IMG/VR virus record: IMGVR_UViG_3300035670_001485
Location: 1 to 20,244 of that record
Origin: a virus
Strand: one strand, 5' to 3'
Length of the DNA: 20,244 nucleotides
The notes beneath the pieces are model-generated. The model ran no database searches. It saw only the letters and a program-made list of their open reading frames with translations, and was not told where the DNA came from. A program made the translations under genes and the position numbers. Below are positions 6,718 through 15,898 of the stretch, piece after piece; position 1 is the stretch's first letter, and each line of letters opens with the position of its first letter.

Positions 6718-8016
6718 ATGGCAAATGGTCGTCGTAATAAGAAACACGCCAATCGATCTGCCCGACCTGGAGGCGGAATACCTGTTGAGGCTGGGCGTAG
6801 CGCACTTGCCCGAGGTGGCAGACTTACCGATCCCAACGCGCTACGAATCCTCTGGTACAGCAACGCCCCGTTCACGAACACCGGCTACGGGCAGCAAACC
6901 GCGCAAATCGTCCCGCGCCTCATCGAAGAAAACCACGAAGTAGCCATCCACGCCATGTACGGCCTTGAGGGGTCGACATCCATGTGGAACGGCGTGAAAC
7001 TCTACCCACGAGGCCTATCGGCCTACAGCGACGACATCATGGTTGCGCACTGGATGGATTGGGCAAACGGCAACCGCAACCTGCCCCCCATCCTCATGAC
7101 CCTGTTTGACGTATGGGTATTCAAGTCAGCCACCTTTGACCAGGTGCCACGGATCGCATCCTGGGTGCCAATCGACCACGCCCCCACCCCACCGGATGTC
7201 CTGGCGTGGCTGGCTCGCAAGAACGTGATGCCGATAGCGATGAGCCAGTTCGGGAGCCGAATGCTGGAGAAGGCTGGGTTGGAACATTTGTACGCCCCGC
7301 ACGGAATCGAGGACACGTTCAGGCCAACCGAGGTGTTCAGCAACGGACGCGCCCAGGCCACCGGTCGACAGCTCATGGGCATCGAAGACGACCGGTTCGT
7401 GGTCATGATGAACGCAGCCAACAAAGGCGTGAACCCGTCCAGGAAGGCATTTGCTGAGAACCTGCTGGCGTTCGGCATCTTCGCTCAAACCCACCCTGAC
7501 GCGGTGCTGTACCTGCACACCGAGGCCAACGGCTCGATGGGCGGCATCAGCTTGCTGCACCTGGCGGAGGCCTGCGGGATCAAACCAGAACAACTCAAAA
7601 TCGTCGATCAGTACGCCTACCGTGCCGGATTCCCCCAGGAAGCCCTGGCGGCCATGTATTCGGCCTCCGACGTGCTTCTGTCCTGCTCGATGGGCGAGGG
7701 CTTCGGTTTGGCTGTGATCGAGGCCCAGGCCTGCGGCACTAGGGTGATTGTCTCGGATTTCACGGCTCAGCCTGAGCTGGTGGGGTCGGGGTGGACGGTT
7801 GAGGTGCAGCCGTTTTGGGATGCGGCTCAACGCTCTTGGTTCTGCACCCCACAGGTTCCATCCATCGTGGATGCCCTGAAACGGGCCTACGAGGCTCCTA
7901 GAGGCGTGGATGAGATGGCTGTGGGGTTTGCTAGCCAGTATTACGCTGACGCGGTTTATACGGCGTTCTGGCAGCCGATCATGGGAAGGCTGGCGGCATG
8001 GTGCCGATCCCAGTAA
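6718..8016 (+). CDS. glycosyltransferase, GT4-like (GT-B fold)
   Basis: The 432-residue product would transfer a sugar from an activated donor. Residues 1-36 are a basic, glycine-rich leader. The N-terminal Rossmann half starts at ALRILWYSNAPF (41-52) with the glycine loop TNTGYGQQT (53-61). The C-terminal half has HTEANG (267-272), SASDVLLSCSMGEGFGLAVI (315-334) and the diagnostic E-x7-E pair E327/E335, followed by ACGTRVIVSD, as in GT4 enzymes. Acceptor and sugar cannot be read from sequence. It begins a four-gene coupled run and has the best ribosome site in the area, AAGGAGG at 6706-6712. Composition changes from C/A-rich to G/T-rich near 7740, just after the E-x7-E motif, hinting at a recombinant C-terminus. 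No signal peptide or membrane segment is visible, so it probably acts in the cytoplasm. Confidence 0.88.
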   Translation: MANGRRNKKHANRSARPGGGIPVEAGRSALARGGRLTDPNALRILWYSNAPFTNTGYGQQTAQIVPRLIEENHEVAIHAMYGLEGSTSMWNGVKLYPRGLSAYSDDIMVAHWMDWANGNRNLPPILMTLFDVWVFKSATFDQVPRIASWVPIDHAPTPPDVLAWLARKNVMPIAMSQFGSRMLEKAGLEHLYAPHGIEDTFRPTEVFSNGRAQATGRQLMGIEDDRFVVMMNAANKGVNPSRKAFAENLLAFGIFAQTHPDAVLYLHTEANGSMGGISLLHLAEACGIKPEQLKIVDQYAYRAGFPQEALAAMYSASDVLLSCSMGEGFGLAVIEAQACGTRVIVSDFTAQPELVGSGWTVEVQPFWDAAQRSWFCTPQVPSIVDALKRAYEAPRGVDEMAVGFASQYYADAVYTAFWQPIMGRLAAWCRSQ

Positions 8017-8657
8017 TCATCGTCCCTGTCCTCAACCGGTACGACCTGCTGCGCCGTGCCGTTTGGTCTATCGACTACCCCGTCGAAACCCTCATCCTGA
8101 TTGACAACGGCGACCGGCGAGAAACCTATCCCTGGCACACCAAACCCACCACCGTCTATGAGCAATACGTCTGGCACATCCCCACCAACCTTGGGGTCGG
8201 CCCGTCATGGAATGCTGGTATCAAATCGACACCACACCGAGACGGCTGGCTCCTACTGAACTCGGATGCCTGGTTCCTGTCCAACGAACTGGAGCGATTC
8301 TGGCAGGACTGCCAACCAGACAACATCGTGAAAACCCGTTCCCACTGGTCATGCGTCTGGATCGGCTCCCAAGTGGTCGCCAAGATTGGTCTGTTCTCCG
8401 AGTGCTACGTCCCCGCCTACTTCGAGGACAACGACTTCGAGCAACGGGCTGTGAACGCTGGGTTCAGCCTGGTGGTATCTGAAGCCCAGATAGGTCACGA
8501 CAACTCATCAACCATCGGCTCCGACCCGTTCCTGTTGATGAAGAACGCGCACAGCTTTGAACAGAATCGGCTGCTTCATGTGCGCCGGTGGTCTGCCGGT
8601 GTGCCGGAAGCCGGTGCTTGGGATCTGACCAGGCGGCGAGAATTGGGTTGGGAATGA
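7998..8657 (+). CDS. glycosyltransferase, GT2-like (GT-A fold)
   Basis: The 219-residue product has the layout of a compact GT-A enzyme: a first strand and turn VPVLNRYDLLRRAVWSI (9-25), a nucleotide-binding IDNGD (35-39) and NLGVGPSWNAGI (64-75). LLLNSDAWF (86-93) supplies the DxD-like metal site (NSD), and PAYFEDNDFEQRA (139-151) matches the acceptor and catalytic-base region of GT2 rhamnosyl- or galactosyl-type enzymes. It lacks any membrane helix and would be cytoplasmic. The ATG at 7998 overlaps the GT4 gene by 19 bases, and a GTG follows directly as an alternative. Third positions are strongly C/A-rich (20 G or T in the 60 bases from 8101), unlike the end of the preceding gene. The donor sugar is unknown. 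Confidence 0.82.
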   Translation: MVPIPVIIVPVLNRYDLLRRAVWSIDYPVETLILIDNGDRRETYPWHTKPTTVYEQYVWHIPTNLGVGPSWNAGIKSTPHRDGWLLLNSDAWFLSNELERFWQDCQPDNIVKTRSHWSCVWIGSQVVAKIGLFSECYVPAYFEDNDFEQRAVNAGFSLVVSEAQIGHDNSSTIGSDPFLLMKNAHSFEQNRLLHVRRWSAGVPEAGAWDLTRRRELGWE

Positions 8658-9388
8658 CCGTCTTTGACCTGGTTCTCTATAACGGGGAGGACGACGTTCT
8701 TGAATGCCGACTGTGGGAACTGGCCGATGTCGTTGATGTGATGGTCGTCCTCGAGGGGGATCGAACCTTCACCGGCAAACCGAAAGAGAAGAAACCCCGC
8801 GACAGGTTCAAGCAGTGGGACGGCCTGATCCATTGGGTCGACTATGTGACCCCGTTCGATCAGAACGCCTGGCTGGTCGAAACAGCCACCAGGAACCACC
8901 TGCTAGAGGTGGCTGACGGCTTGGGCTGCCAAGCAGACGATGTGGTGACGATCTGTGACGTGGATGAAATCTGGTCGCCCACAATGGTTTCAGCGTTCGC
9001 TGAGGAGCCTTGTGGGGTGATGATGCGGCATCTGGCGATGTCGGTGTTGTGGGAGCTGCCGCTCGAACTGACGTGTGTGGCAGGCCCACGGCATCGAGTA
9101 GGCCCGACAGCAGACCAGTTCCGGCGCAATCGAGGCAGCCATCGACTCCTGGTTGGCGGCTGGCACGTCTCTTGGATGGGCGGGGAGGAGTGGTGCGCCA
9201 ACAAAATCAGGTCATTCAGCCATCAGGAACTCAACCAGGGGAACGTGGACGCGGCCATGATCGACTGCCACCGGCACGGCAGGTTCGTTCACGGCGAAGT
9301 GTATAACGAGGTGCAGATCACCGAGGACTGGCCCCTGTGGATAAAGGCTGGGAAGGCACCCGAGTCCTGGTATCGGAGACGGCCATGA
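8654..9388 (+). CDS. glycosyltransferase, GT17-like (N-acetylglucosaminyltransferase family)
   Basis: The 244-residue product matches the GT17 pattern, a family named for eukaryotic beta-1,4-mannosyl-glycoprotein beta-1,4-GlcNAc transferase and common in phages and bacteria. Visible motifs are FDLVLYNGEDDVLECRLWEL (4-23), VVLEGDRTFTGKPK (31-44), TICDVDEIWSP (99-109) with the DVDE metal-type motif, GGWHVSWMGG (168-177) and KIRSFSHQE (184-192). The order and spacing agree with the family. The start at 8654 is chosen because it forms an ATGA overlap with the GT2 stop. An in-frame ATG at 8588 would add 22 cysteine- and arginine-rich residues lying inside the GT2 gene. Activity on a protein or glycan is inferred from family, and the exact linkage is unknown. 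Confidence 0.85.
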   Translation: MTVFDLVLYNGEDDVLECRLWELADVVDVMVVLEGDRTFTGKPKEKKPRDRFKQWDGLIHWVDYVTPFDQNAWLVETATRNHLLEVADGLGCQADDVVTICDVDEIWSPTMVSAFAEEPCGVMMRHLAMSVLWELPLELTCVAGPRHRVGPTADQFRRNRGSHRLLVGGWHVSWMGGEEWCANKIRSFSHQELNQGNVDAAMIDCHRHGRFVHGEVYNEVQITEDWPLWIKAGKAPESWYRRRP

Positions 9389-10284
9389 TCGTTGCCATCG
9401 CCCCAGCGCACGCCGTCACCGGTGGCCCCGAGGCCTTACATCAGCTAGTGCATACCGCCAACCGGCTGAAGCCTGGTTCGGCTGCGATCTGCTACCACCC
9501 GTTTGACCAGCGAGCCTGGGTGCCTGCCCCGTATCAAATCTATGACACCCCCGTGATAGGTAGGGAGGCCATCCCTGATGATGCGGTTGTAGTGTTGCCC
9601 GAGATTTGGCCTGAACTCGCTCAAGGGTTCACGCAACGCTGCGCCCTGTGGTGGCTGTCTGTGGATAACTATGGGACGCACGGCCAACGCAGCCTCAAAG
9701 GAATCGACCTGCACCTATTCCAATCCCACTATGCGGCTTTACATGGACGTGAGTTGGGGCTGCCAGGCATGATGCTCACCGACTACCTCAGCCCTGATTT
9801 CGTTGAGTTGGTGGCTTCCGTTGATGTGTCGCACAAGGATCGGTGTGTGGTGGTCAATCCGGCGAAGGGTCGTGAACTTATCCACAGGTTCCAGGCGATG
9901 AATCCAGACATTGAGGTTCGGGAGTTGCGTGGGTTGGATCGGGCTGGGGTGCGCGGCTTGTTGTTGTCGTCGATGGTGTATGTGGATTTTGGGCATCATC
10001 CTGGGCGGGATCGACCTCCGCGTGAGGCGGCGATGGCGAAGTGTGTGGTGTTCTCAACTCGGTTTGGTGCTGCTAGGAATCAGGTGGACATGAGGGTTCC
10101 TGAGCGGTTCAAGTTTGATTCGTTGGATGGTTTGGGTGAGCAGATTCGTGGCGTGTGGGATTCGCCTTCTGCGTTCGTGCGGAACTTGGATGACCAGTTG
10201 GAGTATCGGTTGTGGATTCGTGGCAACGAGCAAACATTCCGTGACGAGGTTTCGGTTCTGTTGAAATGGGCTGAAGTAGGATAG
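9385..10284 (+). CDS. GT-B-like glycosyltransferase-related protein
   Basis: The 299-residue protein begins with a short strand and glycine turn typical of a GT-B N-terminal half, MIVAIAPAHAVTGGPEALHQ (1-20). A WWLSVDNYG segment (89-97) follows, and a second half starts at CVVVNPAKGRELI (154-166). Its best landmark is YVDFGHHPGRDRPPREAAMA (199-218), where the E plays the part of the donor-site glutamate of GT-B enzymes. I recall similar DFG-HPG-DR-PREA proteins beside glycan genes in phages and bacteria, but the exact family is uncertain. The start at 9385 forms an ATGA overlap with the GT17 stop. An in-frame ATG at 9337 lies inside the previous gene and is rejected. The 3' half (from about 9740) is G/T-rich while the 5' half is mixed. 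It closes the four-gene run. Confidence 0.65.
   Translation: MIVAIAPAHAVTGGPEALHQLVHTANRLKPGSAAICYHPFDQRAWVPAPYQIYDTPVIGREAIPDDAVVVLPEIWPELAQGFTQRCALWWLSVDNYGTHGQRSLKGIDLHLFQSHYAALHGRELGLPGMMLTDYLSPDFVELVASVDVSHKDRCVVVNPAKGRELIHRFQAMNPDIEVRELRGLDRAGVRGLLLSSMVYVDFGHHPGRDRPPREAAMAKCVVFSTRFGAARNQVDMRVPERFKFDSLDGLGEQIRGVWDSPSAFVRNLDDQLEYRLWIRGNEQTFRDEVSVLLKWAEVG
10277..10282 (+). promoter_or_regulatory. TAGGAT box before the adaptor gene
   Basis: TAGGAT fits the TAnnnT -10 pattern and ends 9 bases before the ATG at 10292. The same TAGGATAGG string precedes the second fiber gene at 18157, also 9 bases from its ATG. Its AGG may instead be a weak Shine-Dalgarno sequence. Confidence 0.25.
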
Positions 10285-12357: not shown

Positions 12358-12930
12358 ATGGCTTTCAATGGCACTCCTCTTGGTCAAAATAAGGATGCAT
12401 CGATTGTTGGTCGTGCCGGTCAAGCCAGGGTTGTTCCTCGGAACGGGATCTACATTGAGGGCTTGTGGGAGTTGTTGCGCGACCTGCAGAAGGCTGATGA
12501 TCGGTTCAACACTGAGATGCGTAAGGCTTCGCTGGAGGTGGCGAAGGGGGTGACGCAGAATTCTCGTCGGGCGGCTTCTACGGTGCAACATAATCGGCAG
12601 GCGTTGGAGGCGGCTCACGGGTTGCAAGCCAAGTCGGATCGTGTGCCGACGATCAAGTTGAATGAGAAGCAACGGTTCATTTCGGTGAATCGTGGCAGGG
12701 TGCGTGGCTCAAGGGGTCGTCTGGTGAATCGTAAGGTGACGATGGGGGACGTGTTCTTTGGTGCTGAGTTTGGTGGCGGTGCTAGAAGGACGACCAGGCA
12801 GTTCCCACCGCATCGAGGCAGGGGCGGGTATTTCTTTTGGCCTACGGTGCGCCGGATGCGCAACGAAATTGCTGAGCAATACTTGGACGCTATTGAGGAA
12901 ACCATGCGGAAATTGGGGTTTGACCAGTAG
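12358..12930 (+). CDS. HK97 gp10-like neck or tail completion protein
   Basis: The 190-residue basic protein has an N-terminal region with GLWELLRDLQKADDRFNTEM (35-54), then a long helix (EVAKGVTQNSRRAA) and a glycine-arginine loop. It continues with VFFGAEFGGG followed by FPPHRGRGGYFFWPTVRRM, and a closing helix EQYLDAIEETMRKL. The order helix, A-x-x-V, Y/F-G-x-x-x-E-F-G, hydrophobic-P and C-terminal helix fits the HK97-gp10-like head-tail or tail completion family. In most siphoviruses this gene lies upstream of the tube gene, but here it follows the chaperones. The name is therefore given with caution, and a minor tail role is possible. The ATG at 12358 has no clear ribosome site. Confidence 0.5.
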   Translation: MAFNGTPLGQNKDASIVGRAGQARVVPRNGIYIEGLWELLRDLQKADDRFNTEMRKASLEVAKGVTQNSRRAASTVQHNRQALEAAHGLQAKSDRVPTIKLNEKQRFISVNRGRVRGSRGRLVNRKVTMGDVFFGAEFGGGARRTTRQFPPHRGRGGYFFWPTVRRMRNEIAEQYLDAIEETMRKLGFDQ

Positions 12931-12938
12931 TTGGATGA

Positions 12939-12957
12939 CCTAGCTGGGCAGGCTAGG
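12939..12957 (+). promoter_or_regulatory. hairpin before the primase-like gene
   Basis: CCTAGC (12939-12944) and GCTAGG (12952-12957) form a perfect six-bp stem with a seven-base loop in the 45-base gap after the gp10-like gene. No T-run follows. It could be a weak terminator or a boundary element of an inserted gene. Confidence 0.4.
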
Positions 12958-12975
12958 GTGGGCTGAGGAGGGTTC

Positions 12976-13704
12976 ATGGCTGTTTTGTTCAAGTCGGTGA
13001 AGTCAATTTATCCGCGTCGGATTGCGTCTGATTGGGTGGGCTTGAAGGAGTTGTTGTCGTTTCATGAGGAGAACCCTGTGAAGCAGGCTGGGGCGTTGTG
13101 GTCGCCTGTGGAGTATTACGGGGGGACGACTAGAGGCAACAGGAATGTGCGGTTTGTTGAGGCTCTGGTTGTGGACATGGATGGTGACGGGTTTGATGGG
13201 TGCAGGTTGGATGGGTTGGAGTGGTTTGCGTATTCCACTTATTCGCATCGGTTGGATGATCCGCACTATCACCTTGTGTTGCCGTTGAAGGAGCGTGTGC
13301 CTGCTGGGTTGTGGCGTGTGATGTGGCAGGAGTTGGTGGGTCGTTTGCGGTTGCCTGCTGACCCTGCGACGAAAGATCCTGCTCGTTTGTTTTATCTGCC
13401 TCAGCACGCACCTGATCAGCCGTTTGAGTTCCATGAGGGTTCGGGCAGGTTGCTGGATGTGGATTGGGATTGGGATGCGTTGTCGGAGCCTTACGAGTTG
13501 CCGAAGTCTGGTCGTCAGCGTTCTGCATCGAACAAGCGTCGGATTGTTGATGATGCGGATGGGGTGGCGTTTGCTGTGTTGAGTGATGATTGGTGGGAGC
13601 GTGGTGATGCTTCTCGGTTCAACGGGTTGAGTGGGTCTGCGTTGTATCGTGAGGCGTTGCGTCAGTTCCGTGAACTCAGGTATGGGGTTTCTGTGGCTGA
13701 GTAG
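12976..13704 (+). CDS. primase-polymerase-like (AEP-like) protein of unknown role
   Basis: The 242-residue protein resembles the catalytic part of archaeo-eukaryotic-type primases and RepA-like phage replication proteins. A metal-binding DxD pair lies in ALVVDMDGDG (63-72; D67 and D69). It is followed by AYSTYSHR (85-92, an S-x-H-type motif with H91), HYHLVLPL (97-104) and KDPARLFYLP (133-142), where an R after DP precedes an aromatic strand. No helicase or zinc-finger segment follows, so any activity would need a partner. GAGGAGGG (12965-12972) is a strong but closely spaced ribosome site. It sits between a neck-like gene and the tape measure, a place where replication genes are not expected, and is flanked upstream by a hairpin, so it may be a mobile cargo gene. 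The family call is by motif reading and uncertain. Confidence 0.5.
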   Translation: MAVLFKSVKSIYPRRIASDWVGLKELLSFHEENPVKQAGALWSPVEYYGGTTRGNRNVRFVEALVVDMDGDGFDGCRLDGLEWFAYSTYSHRLDDPHYHLVLPLKERVPAGLWRVMWQELVGRLRLPADPATKDPARLFYLPQHAPDQPFEFHEGSGRLLDVDWDWDALSEPYELPKSGRQRSASNKRRIVDDADGVAFAVLSDDWWERGDASRFNGLSGSALYREALRQFRELRYGVSVAE

Positions 13705-13714: not shown

Positions 13715-15898
13715 ATGGCTGGTGAACGCACTTTTGTTGTCAGGGTTTTGGCTGACTCAAAGGAGGCTATTGCTGGTCTGAAGAAGTTGGGGGTTGAAAC
13801 CAGCAAACTTGGTTTGGACATGGACAGGGGTTTGGGGTCTGTGTTGAAGGGGTTGGTGCCGTCGTTCAAAACGGTGGCGTTGGCTGGGACGGCTGCGTTT
13901 GGTGCGTTGACTGCGTTCACAATCAAGTCGGTGATGGCTGCGAAGGATGCGCAGGCTGAGCAGAATCGTTTGCGTCAAATCTTGTTGACGACTGGTGGCG
14001 CGACTGAGCAGCAAGTGGAGGCGTTGAACAAGCAGGCTCAGGCGTTGCAGAACTTGGGTGTGGTGTCGGCTGGCAACATTTCGGTGGTGCAGGCTCAGCT
14101 TGCGACGTTTGATTTGCAGGCCTCGACCATTGAGCGTTTGACTCCAGCGATTCTTGATTATGTGACGGCTGAGAAGGGGGCGACTGCTTCGGCTGAGGAT
14201 TTCAAGTCAATGACGAACGGGTTGGCTCAAGCGTTGCAGGGGAACTTCGGGTCTTTGACTCGTGTCGGGTTTGTGTTGGATGAGACTACGAAGAAGCAGA
14301 TCACATCAGGGAATGAGGCTGAGCGTTCTGCTGCGTTGGTGAAAGTGTTGAATTCGACTTATGAGGGATTCAATGCGACGCTTCGTGATACGACTGAGGG
14401 TCGTTTGCAGGTGTTGCGCAACGGGTTCCAAGACATCCAAGAGGAGATTGGGAAGGCGTTGTTGCCGGTGTTGGACAAGTTGTTGGATTATTTCAACGAC
14501 AAGATCATGCCCGTGATCATGGAATCGGTGATCCCTGGATTCCAGATGTTCGTGGATGTGTTGGGCAAGCGTGGGATCGGTGACGCGACGATTTACGCAA
14601 TCGCCGCTATGGGCGACTTCGGGTTGAAAGCCATCGGCGTTCTTGAATCCGTCACCCGTTCGGTACTGACCTTCATCCGTGACTTTGCTTCTATTGGTGA
14701 GTCGGTCGGCATGATCGGAACCTTGGTTGGTGCGTTGGCTCGTGATGTGAAGTTGGTTGCTACGGCTGGGTCGGCTGGGTTTGCGTTGGGGAGACTTGAG
14801 GATGACATCAACAAGCGGTTGACGAACATTGGCAGCGATTTTGACGACATCCGAGGCAAGATCAACGAGGCAAACAAAGGTTTGGCTCAGTTGGTTCCTG
14901 GGAAGGATTTTGAGCAACAGGTTGGCGATTATCGCGGGAGCATGGGTAAGGCAACCAAGACGACGGCTGATTTCAGCAACACTTTGAGTGGTGCGAGTGG
15001 GACGGTGAAGAAGGGCAAGGATGCTGTGAGGGAGTATGCGGATGCGATGAAGGCCGCCTCCAGCGCACAGGATCGATTCAACACGTCAATCAAGTCGACG
15101 GATCGTGCGCAGCGTTCACTAAACGAAGCGAATGCGAGTTTGGCTGAGGCGCAGGCGAAGTTCAATCAGGCGGTGGCTGGGTATGGGGCTGATTCGCAGC
15201 AGGCTAAGGATGCGCAGCGTGAGTTGGATGCGGCGCAGCGTGGGGTGGAGCGGGCTGGGTATCGGGTTGAGGATTCGGTGTTTGCGATTGCTGATGCGGA
15301 GAAGGCGTTGCAGGAGGTTCGTAGCAGGCCTGGTGTGACGGCGCGTGAGGTGCGTGAGGCTGAGATTGCGTTGGCTGAGGCGAAGTTGTCGTTGGCTGAT
15401 GCGACTGATGATCAGGTGCGTTCGACTCAAAGTTTGTCGGATGCGCAGGCCATGTTGAATGAGGTGGTGTTTGGGGCGTTGCCTGGGTCGGCGTTGTATA
15501 GGGAGTTGTCGGATGCGGTGGCTGAGGCGGAGCGGCGTCGAGCTGATGCGTTGGATGCGGTGACTGAGGCGTTGAAGCGACAGAAGGATGCTGAGGAGGC
15601 GTTGTTTGAGGCGGTGAAGAAGACGCAGGGGTTCAAGGGTCGTCCTGGGTTTGTGGCGACAGTGCCGAACCCTGTCGGGGCTGCAACCGCTTCTATCCCG
15701 CAGGCTTTGTCTCCGTTCTTCATCGGCTCAGGATTGGACAATCCTGCTGTCGCCAGAGCTGTCAACGTCACAGTGAACGCCGGACTCGGCACATCAGGAG
15801 TCGCAGTCGGAGAAGAAATCTACAACTACCTCAGCCAGTATCAACGGTTGAATGGCGGCCAGTTCAACCGCTACGGGAACATCGGTAGTGTGCTGTGA
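13715..15898 (+). CDS. tape measure protein
   Basis: The 727-residue product is the longest protein here and has the usual build of a tape measure that sets tail length and is ejected ahead of DNA. Its N-terminus (RTFVVRVLADSKEAIAGLKK, 5-24) is the common opening. A hydrophobic stretch VALAGTAAFGALTAFTI (54-70) could insert in the membrane. A middle region with LDKLLDYFNDKIMPV follows. Residues about 438-642 form an alanine- and glutamate-rich coiled coil. At 1.5 angstrom per residue the tail would be about 110 nm. The start at 13715 is preferred because an in-frame ATG at 13631 lies inside the preceding gene and adds an unlikely cysteine-rich leader. No muralytic domain is evident. Composition turns C/A-rich near 15660, in the last 80 residues. 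The stop overlaps the next GTG (15895-15898). Confidence 0.93.
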   Translation: MAGERTFVVRVLADSKEAIAGLKKLGVETSKLGLDMDRGLGSVLKGLVPSFKTVALAGTAAFGALTAFTIKSVMAAKDAQAEQNRLRQILLTTGGATEQQVEALNKQAQALQNLGVVSAGNISVVQAQLATFDLQASTIERLTPAILDYVTAEKGATASAEDFKSMTNGLAQALQGNFGSLTRVGFVLDETTKKQITSGNEAERSAALVKVLNSTYEGFNATLRDTTEGRLQVLRNGFQDIQEEIGKALLPVLDKLLDYFNDKIMPVIMESVIPGFQMFVDVLGKRGIGDATIYAIAAMGDFGLKAIGVLESVTRSVLTFIRDFASIGESVGMIGTLVGALARDVKLVATAGSAGFALGRLEDDINKRLTNIGSDFDDIRGKINEANKGLAQLVPGKDFEQQVGDYRGSMGKATKTTADFSNTLSGASGTVKKGKDAVREYADAMKAASSAQDRFNTSIKSTDRAQRSLNEANASLAEAQAKFNQAVAGYGADSQQAKDAQRELDAAQRGVERAGYRVEDSVFAIADAEKALQEVRSRPGVTAREVREAEIALAEAKLSLADATDDQVRSTQSLSDAQAMLNEVVFGALPGSALYRELSDAVAEAERRRADALDAVTEALKRQKDAEEALFEAVKKTQGFKGRPGFVATVPNPVGAATASIPQALSPFFIGSGLDNPAVARAVNVTVNAGLGTSGVAVGEEIYNYLSQYQRLNGGQFNRYGNIGSVL

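Follow-up and report, generated by a model that had tools for sequence, protein, structure and literature searches.

In phages, AEP-type primase-polymerases are normally parts of replication proteins. Among the described systems closest to the gene analysed here are the VapE-type primase-helicases, such as Brevibacillus phage Emery gp96 and Corynebacterium phage Adelaide gp43, in which the same type of AEP domain is joined to PF05272. Another is the PrimPol of cyanophage S-2L (6ZP9; All3500-like, PrimPol-PV1), for which the available portion of PMC8065100 gives the residues E85, D87, T112, K115, H118, D146 and R157. As described in the part of PMC5862659 that is available, AEPs carry motif I (hhhDhD/E), motif II (sxH), motif III (hD/E) and, for PrimPol-PV1, motif IV (Rh), and the residue of motif II differs between families, many having His there, some Gln and the DR0530-like family Arg or Lys. 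Conjugative elements, according to the accessible sections of PMC5512222, move primases along with DNA. The nearest isolate to the group of uncultured phages considered here is Pontimonas phage phiPsal1 (MG835450; PMC6106888).

Here we analyse a 20,244-base phage record (the window, meaning the whole stretch) in which a gene that an initial annotation had called primase-polymerase-like lies among tail genes. We ask how its product, its position and its relatives compare with the systems above.

A predicted AEP gene between neck-like and tape-measure genes

The window extends from close to the terminase genes, across those for head and tail, as far as a lysis-like region. At 12976-13704 (+) it holds an intact ORF of 242 aa with an ATG start. 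All four motifs that had drawn the initial annotation to this ORF are present (VVDMDGD at residues 65-71, TYSHR at 88-92, HYHLVLPL at 97-104 and DPARLFYLP at 134-142), and its numbering of D67, D69 and H91 is correct in the translation. The gene had been placed between a neck-like gene and the tape measure, and PHROG matches of both flanks agree. Upstream, the gene at 12358-12930 (+) is best read as neck or tail-completion-like from a weak match to PHROG 5 ('tail completion or Neck1', E 0.0066); downstream, the tape-measure gene at 13715-15898 (+), which begins 10 nt past the AEP stop, matches PHROG 28 best (E 1.3e-8), along with others. The strong ribosome site attributed to the gene is also there, as GAGGAGGG at 12965-12972 (+) ahead of the ATG, and AGGAGGGG is kept upstream of the AEP gene across the family.

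The 81 loci, the window counted, yield 60 full-length homologues that are distinct, with a median pairwise dN/dS of 0.165 (91 pairs from 14 sequences, with pairs at dS >=2 excluded), which together place the ORF beyond chance. The corresponding medians are 0.161 for the neck gene, 0.113 for a 96-aa gene, 0.178 for the tail tube, 0.090 for the adaptor and 0.107 for the terminator gene; the AEP value falls within this range, and the gene is maintained like its neighbours.

Elsewhere in the window, the interval from major capsid to head-tail adaptor (6718-10284) contains several glycosyltransferase genes (GT4-like, GT2-like and family 17) and encodes a protein of 315 aa that Pfam does not match; in phiPsal1, two glycosyltransferases are annotated at the equivalent place. 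Between the two glycosyltransferase genes of one related record (G004) lies an additional ORF of 156 aa (L087:3364-3834, -), which has paired cysteine motifs and resembles an HNH/endonuclease VII-type gene.

Family placement and predicted fold

Searched against PHROGs, the 242-aa protein matches DNA primase 9765 (E 6.9e-14), DNA helicase 256 (3.9e-9) and 10537 (1.7e-6), and both 9765 and 256 match 11/11 aligned AEP family members. When 11 family members and 20 VapE-type AEP domains are compared by hhalign, the probability is 97.5% (E 6.5e-12, 135 columns). With tblastn against 50,697 phage records we obtained 257 weak matches, all below 60% identity (23.9-29.9% among the 60 matches listed), most of which fall near the N terminus of primase/helicase or virulence-associated-E-type proteins. 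When eight of the matched regions were opened, six showed a gene for a primase or helicase with replication genes around it. The other two were a large protein of Caulobacter RBC11 annotated as hypothetical and an 882-aa ORF in MT837827, a record without annotation, whose C-terminal part we read as ATPase-like. Every VapE-type relative checked (47/47) lies within a protein of at least 768 aa, and Pfam finds PF05272 in all three VapE proteins tested. The 242-aa protein itself has no Pfam match at E <= 1, and so neither PF05272 nor PF09250; no NCBIfam model matches it, and phmmer and hmmsearch against PDB sequences return no significant match. A search for proteins that are related to the primase of Vibrio phage V6Aob and stand alone found none, and a scan of genome contigs found no host or prophage copies of the AEP gene.

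Given 54 alignment rows (11 family, 43 VapE-type), AF2 produces a model with a pLDDT of 75.6 and a pTM of 0.72, confident over residues 1-168 and mostly of low confidence over 169-211; on the 11 family rows alone the model is poor (pLDDT 39.5). Because the alignment rests largely on VapE-type rows at 19-24% identity, the model is not a fully separate line of evidence from the family placement. Foldseek returns a single PDB chain at E <= 0.001, the S-2L PrimPol AEP (6zp9, E 8.7e-5), and the same structure heads the VIA-align list (139 residues aligned at 3.3 A, Z 9.7). HP0184 of H. pylori comes next at Z 7.5, and further rows at Z 4-7 are mostly PriS, CAPP, LigD PolDom, human PrimPol, AsfvPrimPol and poxvirus E5; Z values below 8 can reflect only a common arrangement, and here the list is nearly all one superfamily. 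The closest viral model is that of a 234-aa protein from an uncultured Caudovirales phage (57% identity), after which come primase or helicase proteins, those of VapE type among them.

The product of 12976-13704 is predicted to adopt an AEP/RRM-like catalytic fold, in line with the initial annotation, which had made its reading hang on such a fold. Judged by profile and model, the product is an AEP-type primase-polymerase domain, VapE-type by profile, that stands alone without a helicase. Where an AEP-type primase or a RepA-like core had been offered, the first part holds, on fold and catalytic residues, and the second falls for lack of a helicase or RecA part. We rejected a RepA-like or D5-type identity because the protein is a single AEP domain with no ATPase or RecA-like match in Pfam or PHROGs.

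Active-site residues

D67, D69, T88, H91, H99, D129 and R137 are each invariant in 60/60 distinct full-length family members, a shallow set with a mean pairwise identity of about 91% and a minimum of 64%. Among these are D67, D69 and H91, the residues on whose conservation in homologues the initial annotation had staked the catalytic reading. Across the 54 rows of family and VapE-type sequences, D67, D69, Y86-S87-T88, D129 and R137 are invariant, and it is these residues that the tail AEP shares with VapE-type proteins.

Motif I is matched by LVVDMD; the codons of D67-M-D69, a site that by analogy with the AEP family would bind metal, lie at 13174-13182 (+), and D occupies both positions in 43/43 VapE-type rows. 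The T88-Y-S-H91 segment (13237-13248, +) would, from its spacing, make triphosphate contacts like those of T112 and K115 in S-2L PrimPol; VapE-type relatives have T88 in 43/43 rows and H91 in 38/43. H99 (13270-13272, +) is the likely motif II histidine and coincides with the motif II histidine of the NHEJ polymerase (PolDom) in GLHVVVPL, in an alignment that is non-significant (E 1.5); set against sxH, the residue two earlier is H, not small. D129 (13360-13362, +) is the likely motif III acid and R137 (13384-13386, +) the likely motif IV arginine, both present in 43/43 VapE-type rows. The residue preceding D129 in the family is small, not hydrophobic, and R137 is followed by I or L in 60/60 family members and 43/43 VapE-type rows. 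By order and spacing, we infer that D67/D69 correspond to E85/D87 of S-2L PrimPol, T88 to T112, H99 to H118, D129 to D146 and R137 to R157.

The family departs from the VapE type at position 89, which is Y in 11/11 aligned family members versus H in 43/43 VapE-type rows, and at position 99, which is H in 11/11 versus R in 43/43; at position 97 the family has H and the VapE type R or K. The joint change at 89 and 99 provides a ready mutagenesis test of the role of motif II in VapE-type AEPs.

Beyond the catalytic region, the C-terminal tail (residues 204-242; window 13585-13701), where the model is uncertain, carries the conserved pattern WW...D.SR..GL.G..LY...L..F..LR.G.SV.E, with which VapE-type rows align a G..G....Y...AI..FL segment. 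This tail is perhaps the start of a next domain that has been lost.

Insertion in one lineage

The position of the gene is nearly constant. A neck-like match lies upstream in 80/81 loci and a tape-measure match downstream in 80/81, the two misses (L002 and L004) being contig ends; the AEP stop is 9-10 nt from the tape-measure start in 79/80 loci, and the neck stop is 40-62 nt from the AEP start in 80/80. These 81 loci were collected by searching with the AEP gene itself. An AEP-independent set, assembled from an adaptor-protein alignment search and a phiPsal1 search, comprised 85 loci, of which 28 could not be assessed; the remaining 57 syntenic relatives all lack the gene (57/57, cut-off E <= 1e-3). 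In every AEP-less relative inspected (23/23), the gene preceding the tape measure ends between -10 and +2 nt from its start. As the neck-like and tape-measure genes touch or overlap in syntenic relatives that lack it, the AEP gene is a lineage-specific insertion, and the proposal that it is an inserted gene stands in this evolutionary sense. A single insertion in one lineage is the simplest history; loss elsewhere is less likely. An extra gene thus separates genes that adjoin in relatives, as in a moron-type insertion.

Upstream elements

A promoter-like element precedes the AEP gene. In 78/80 loci it reads TTGA(C/T)(T/A)-N16-TACCCT, 16-17 nt before the ATG, with nearly invariant hexamers and a variable spacer. 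The window and its nearest relative (L005) depart from this form and carry TTGG(A/T)T-17 nt-TAGGGT in the corresponding position; the window's version, TTGGAT-N17-TAGGGT at 12931-12959 (+), is weaker in its TTGGAT hexamer. A relaxed form of the pattern occurs in 288 of 16,000 random 100-nt stretches (1.8%). Where the upstream sequence was long enough to judge, it was found before none of the adaptor (41), terminator (4), 96-aa (77), neck (2), tape-measure (80), next tail (46), GT4 (18) or capsid (11) genes. We take the element to be a probable promoter of actinobacterial type. A generic sigma-70 scan did not call the site in the window or in a second locus (L014), and a simple consensus scan called no terminator-like site between the AEP and tape-measure genes of the window.

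The relaxed pattern also precedes the major tail gene, with other hexamers and spacing, in 49/63 loci, and an exonuclease gene in some records, so the element does not tell timing; we dropped an early-type promoter reading on these grounds. The major tail element itself reads TTGAT(A/T)-18 nt-TA(G/T)AGT, 44-45 nt before the start (for example L014:8360-8389), and is absent from the window and L005.

The upstream hairpin of the initial annotation exists as a perfect 6-bp inverted repeat (CCTAGC/GCTAGG, 12939-12944 and 12952-12957, +), whose 3' arm overlaps the promoter-like -10 hexamer, but as a feature it does not survive. Its folding is at the level of shuffled sequence (z -0.37; 64 of 200 shuffles are at least as stable) and is therefore not evidence, and we rejected it as a regulatory structure. 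When four other loci were folded, only L005 had a similar hairpin (z -2.33), the values for L003, L014 and L006 being -0.20, 0.05 and -0.17. A ribosome-site hairpin considered in the L003-like clade was likewise rejected, at chance level.

A second primase in the phage group

Whether these phages carry another primase was a question raised at the outset, and in relatives they do. A protein of 650-700 aa is encoded in the distal part of all six records fetched (G001, G002, G003, G004, G007 and G008), and Pfam, run on three of the six, identifies Prim-Pol PF09250 (E 5.1e-39 to 5.2e-44) together with AAA_25. As the window's record ends before the replication region, its own second primase is deduced from these relatives. 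Profile comparison of the tail AEP with the group's Prim-Pol/AAA protein gives no similarity (probability 0.1%), and on this basis we rejected the idea that the AEP is a copy of the phage's own Prim-Pol. Because relatives have a separate, unrelated Prim-Pol/AAA protein, the tail AEP is unlikely to be the main replication primase; with its helicase part also missing, an accessory enzyme is likelier than a replicase. In the near relative G001, a C-5 cytosine DNA methylase gene (PF00145, 2.7e-55) lies before the Prim-Pol gene, at L084:11591-12904 (+).

Discussion

The reading we favour, with moderate confidence, is that 12976-13704 encodes a captured, probably active accessory AEP that was inserted between the neck-like and tape-measure genes and acts on phage DNA. 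One phage lineage would have gained, by insertion, the AEP together with a short upstream stretch carrying the promoter-like element and the strong ribosome site, the domain being of a type otherwise seen in replication proteins of phages, where a VapE-like helicase is fused to it. The enzyme would be made together with the tape-measure protein. By analogy with the AEP family, it would bind two metal ions via D67, D69 and D129, hold the incoming nucleotide with T88, H91/H99 and R137, and make or extend short strands on phage DNA, the most likely substrate. It could prime or fill gaps as an accessory to the phage's Prim-Pol/AAA replication protein. Production with the tape measure would fit a late role or loading into the virion, and the promoter-like element leaves other timing possible. 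Speaking against an accessory enzyme of this kind, the second AEP of the group makes the gene seem redundant for replication.

A rival reading is that the AEP is virion cargo. Made with the tape-measure protein, it would be packed into tail or head, leave together with the genome and prime or repair the incoming DNA at once, much as conjugative primases act on transferred strands. The fixed place directly before the tape-measure gene would suit such a protein, as would the existence of a separate primase for ordinary replication, and primases moved in conjugation and the virion RNA polymerase of N4 are precedents (PMC5512222, in its available portion). That portion, however, restricts the Primpol domains of polyvalent proteins to conjugative elements; adjacency of genes is by itself a weak guide, and a promoter-like element of its own allows the gene other timing. 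We regard virion loading as an outside contender. Somewhat more doubtful is that the insertion is a moron-type accessory gene whose product modifies or copies nucleic acids to block host defence or a rival element. Relatives do without it, and a lineage-specific insertion among late genes that has a promoter-like element and a ribosome site of its own would suit such a gene, but no terminator was called before the tape-measure gene, and it occupies one fixed site in all loci rather than a patchy set (the loci having been found via the AEP gene itself). PADLOC returned no match to a known defence protein, which also tells against the defence enzyme that the initial annotation had entertained.

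The same annotation had raised a repurposed non-catalytic fold, which here might serve as a tail-assembly or DNA-binding factor beside the tape-measure protein. The setting among tail genes and the exchanges relative to the VapE type (Y89 for H89, H99 for R99) can be read that way. Every catalytic position is conserved, however, with D67, D69, D129, R137 and H91 invariant in all 60 members, and the change at 99 goes towards the canonical motif II histidine, and we consider loss of catalysis improbable. An intact catalytic core under purifying selection would suit a further reading, in which the AEP is the phage's essential replication primase in an unusual place; this we think still less probable, given a PF09250 plus AAA_25 protein in 6/6 records (Pfam tested on three) and phiPsal1-like relatives that lack the AEP gene.

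That phages with another primase have a small, conserved, lone AEP fixed in the tail cluster points to a further role for AEPs, with late DNA synthesis, DNA entry and conflict with the host as candidates. The literature searched, with partial coverage, yielded no report of an AEP beside a tape-measure gene; what is new here is that an AEP of VapE type stands alone and has a fixed place among tail genes.

Compared with known systems, the tail AEP stands closest by domain type to the VapE-type primase-helicases. Those proteins differ in being fused to a helicase, and the ones opened lie in replication modules, whereas the tail AEP is alone and has H99 instead of R and Y89 instead of H. The S-2L PrimPol AEP is the closest solved fold to the model, with a comparable set of catalytic residues (PMC8065100, as far as its available portion describes them), but it is only 14% identical and belongs to a multidomain replicase, as opposed to a lone domain among tail genes. 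The phage group's own Prim-Pol/AAA_25 protein is likewise an AEP primase-polymerase and differs by its AAA fusion and its place in the distal replication region. phiPsal1 shares the order of portal, capsid, glycosyltransferase, adaptor, tail tube, neck-like and tape-measure genes, with 44% identity in the capsid and 40% in the large terminase; it differs in having no AEP, its neck-like and tape-measure genes overlap, and RepO and a replisome organizer are annotated instead. The polyvalent or injected primases of conjugative elements and the N4 virion RNA polymerase, as outlined in the accessible part of PMC5512222, embody a similar idea, a polymerase encoded or moved with the transfer machinery; the tail AEP differs in having one domain. 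A bolder and rather unlikely possibility is that a phage lineage with a replication primase of its own captured a second, stand-alone AEP, that the nucleotide-binding motif of this AEP was rewired (H99/Y89 for R99/H89), and that the protein is built into the tail along with the tape measure to enter the cell with the DNA, which would make it the phage counterpart of the primases that conjugative plasmids deliver.
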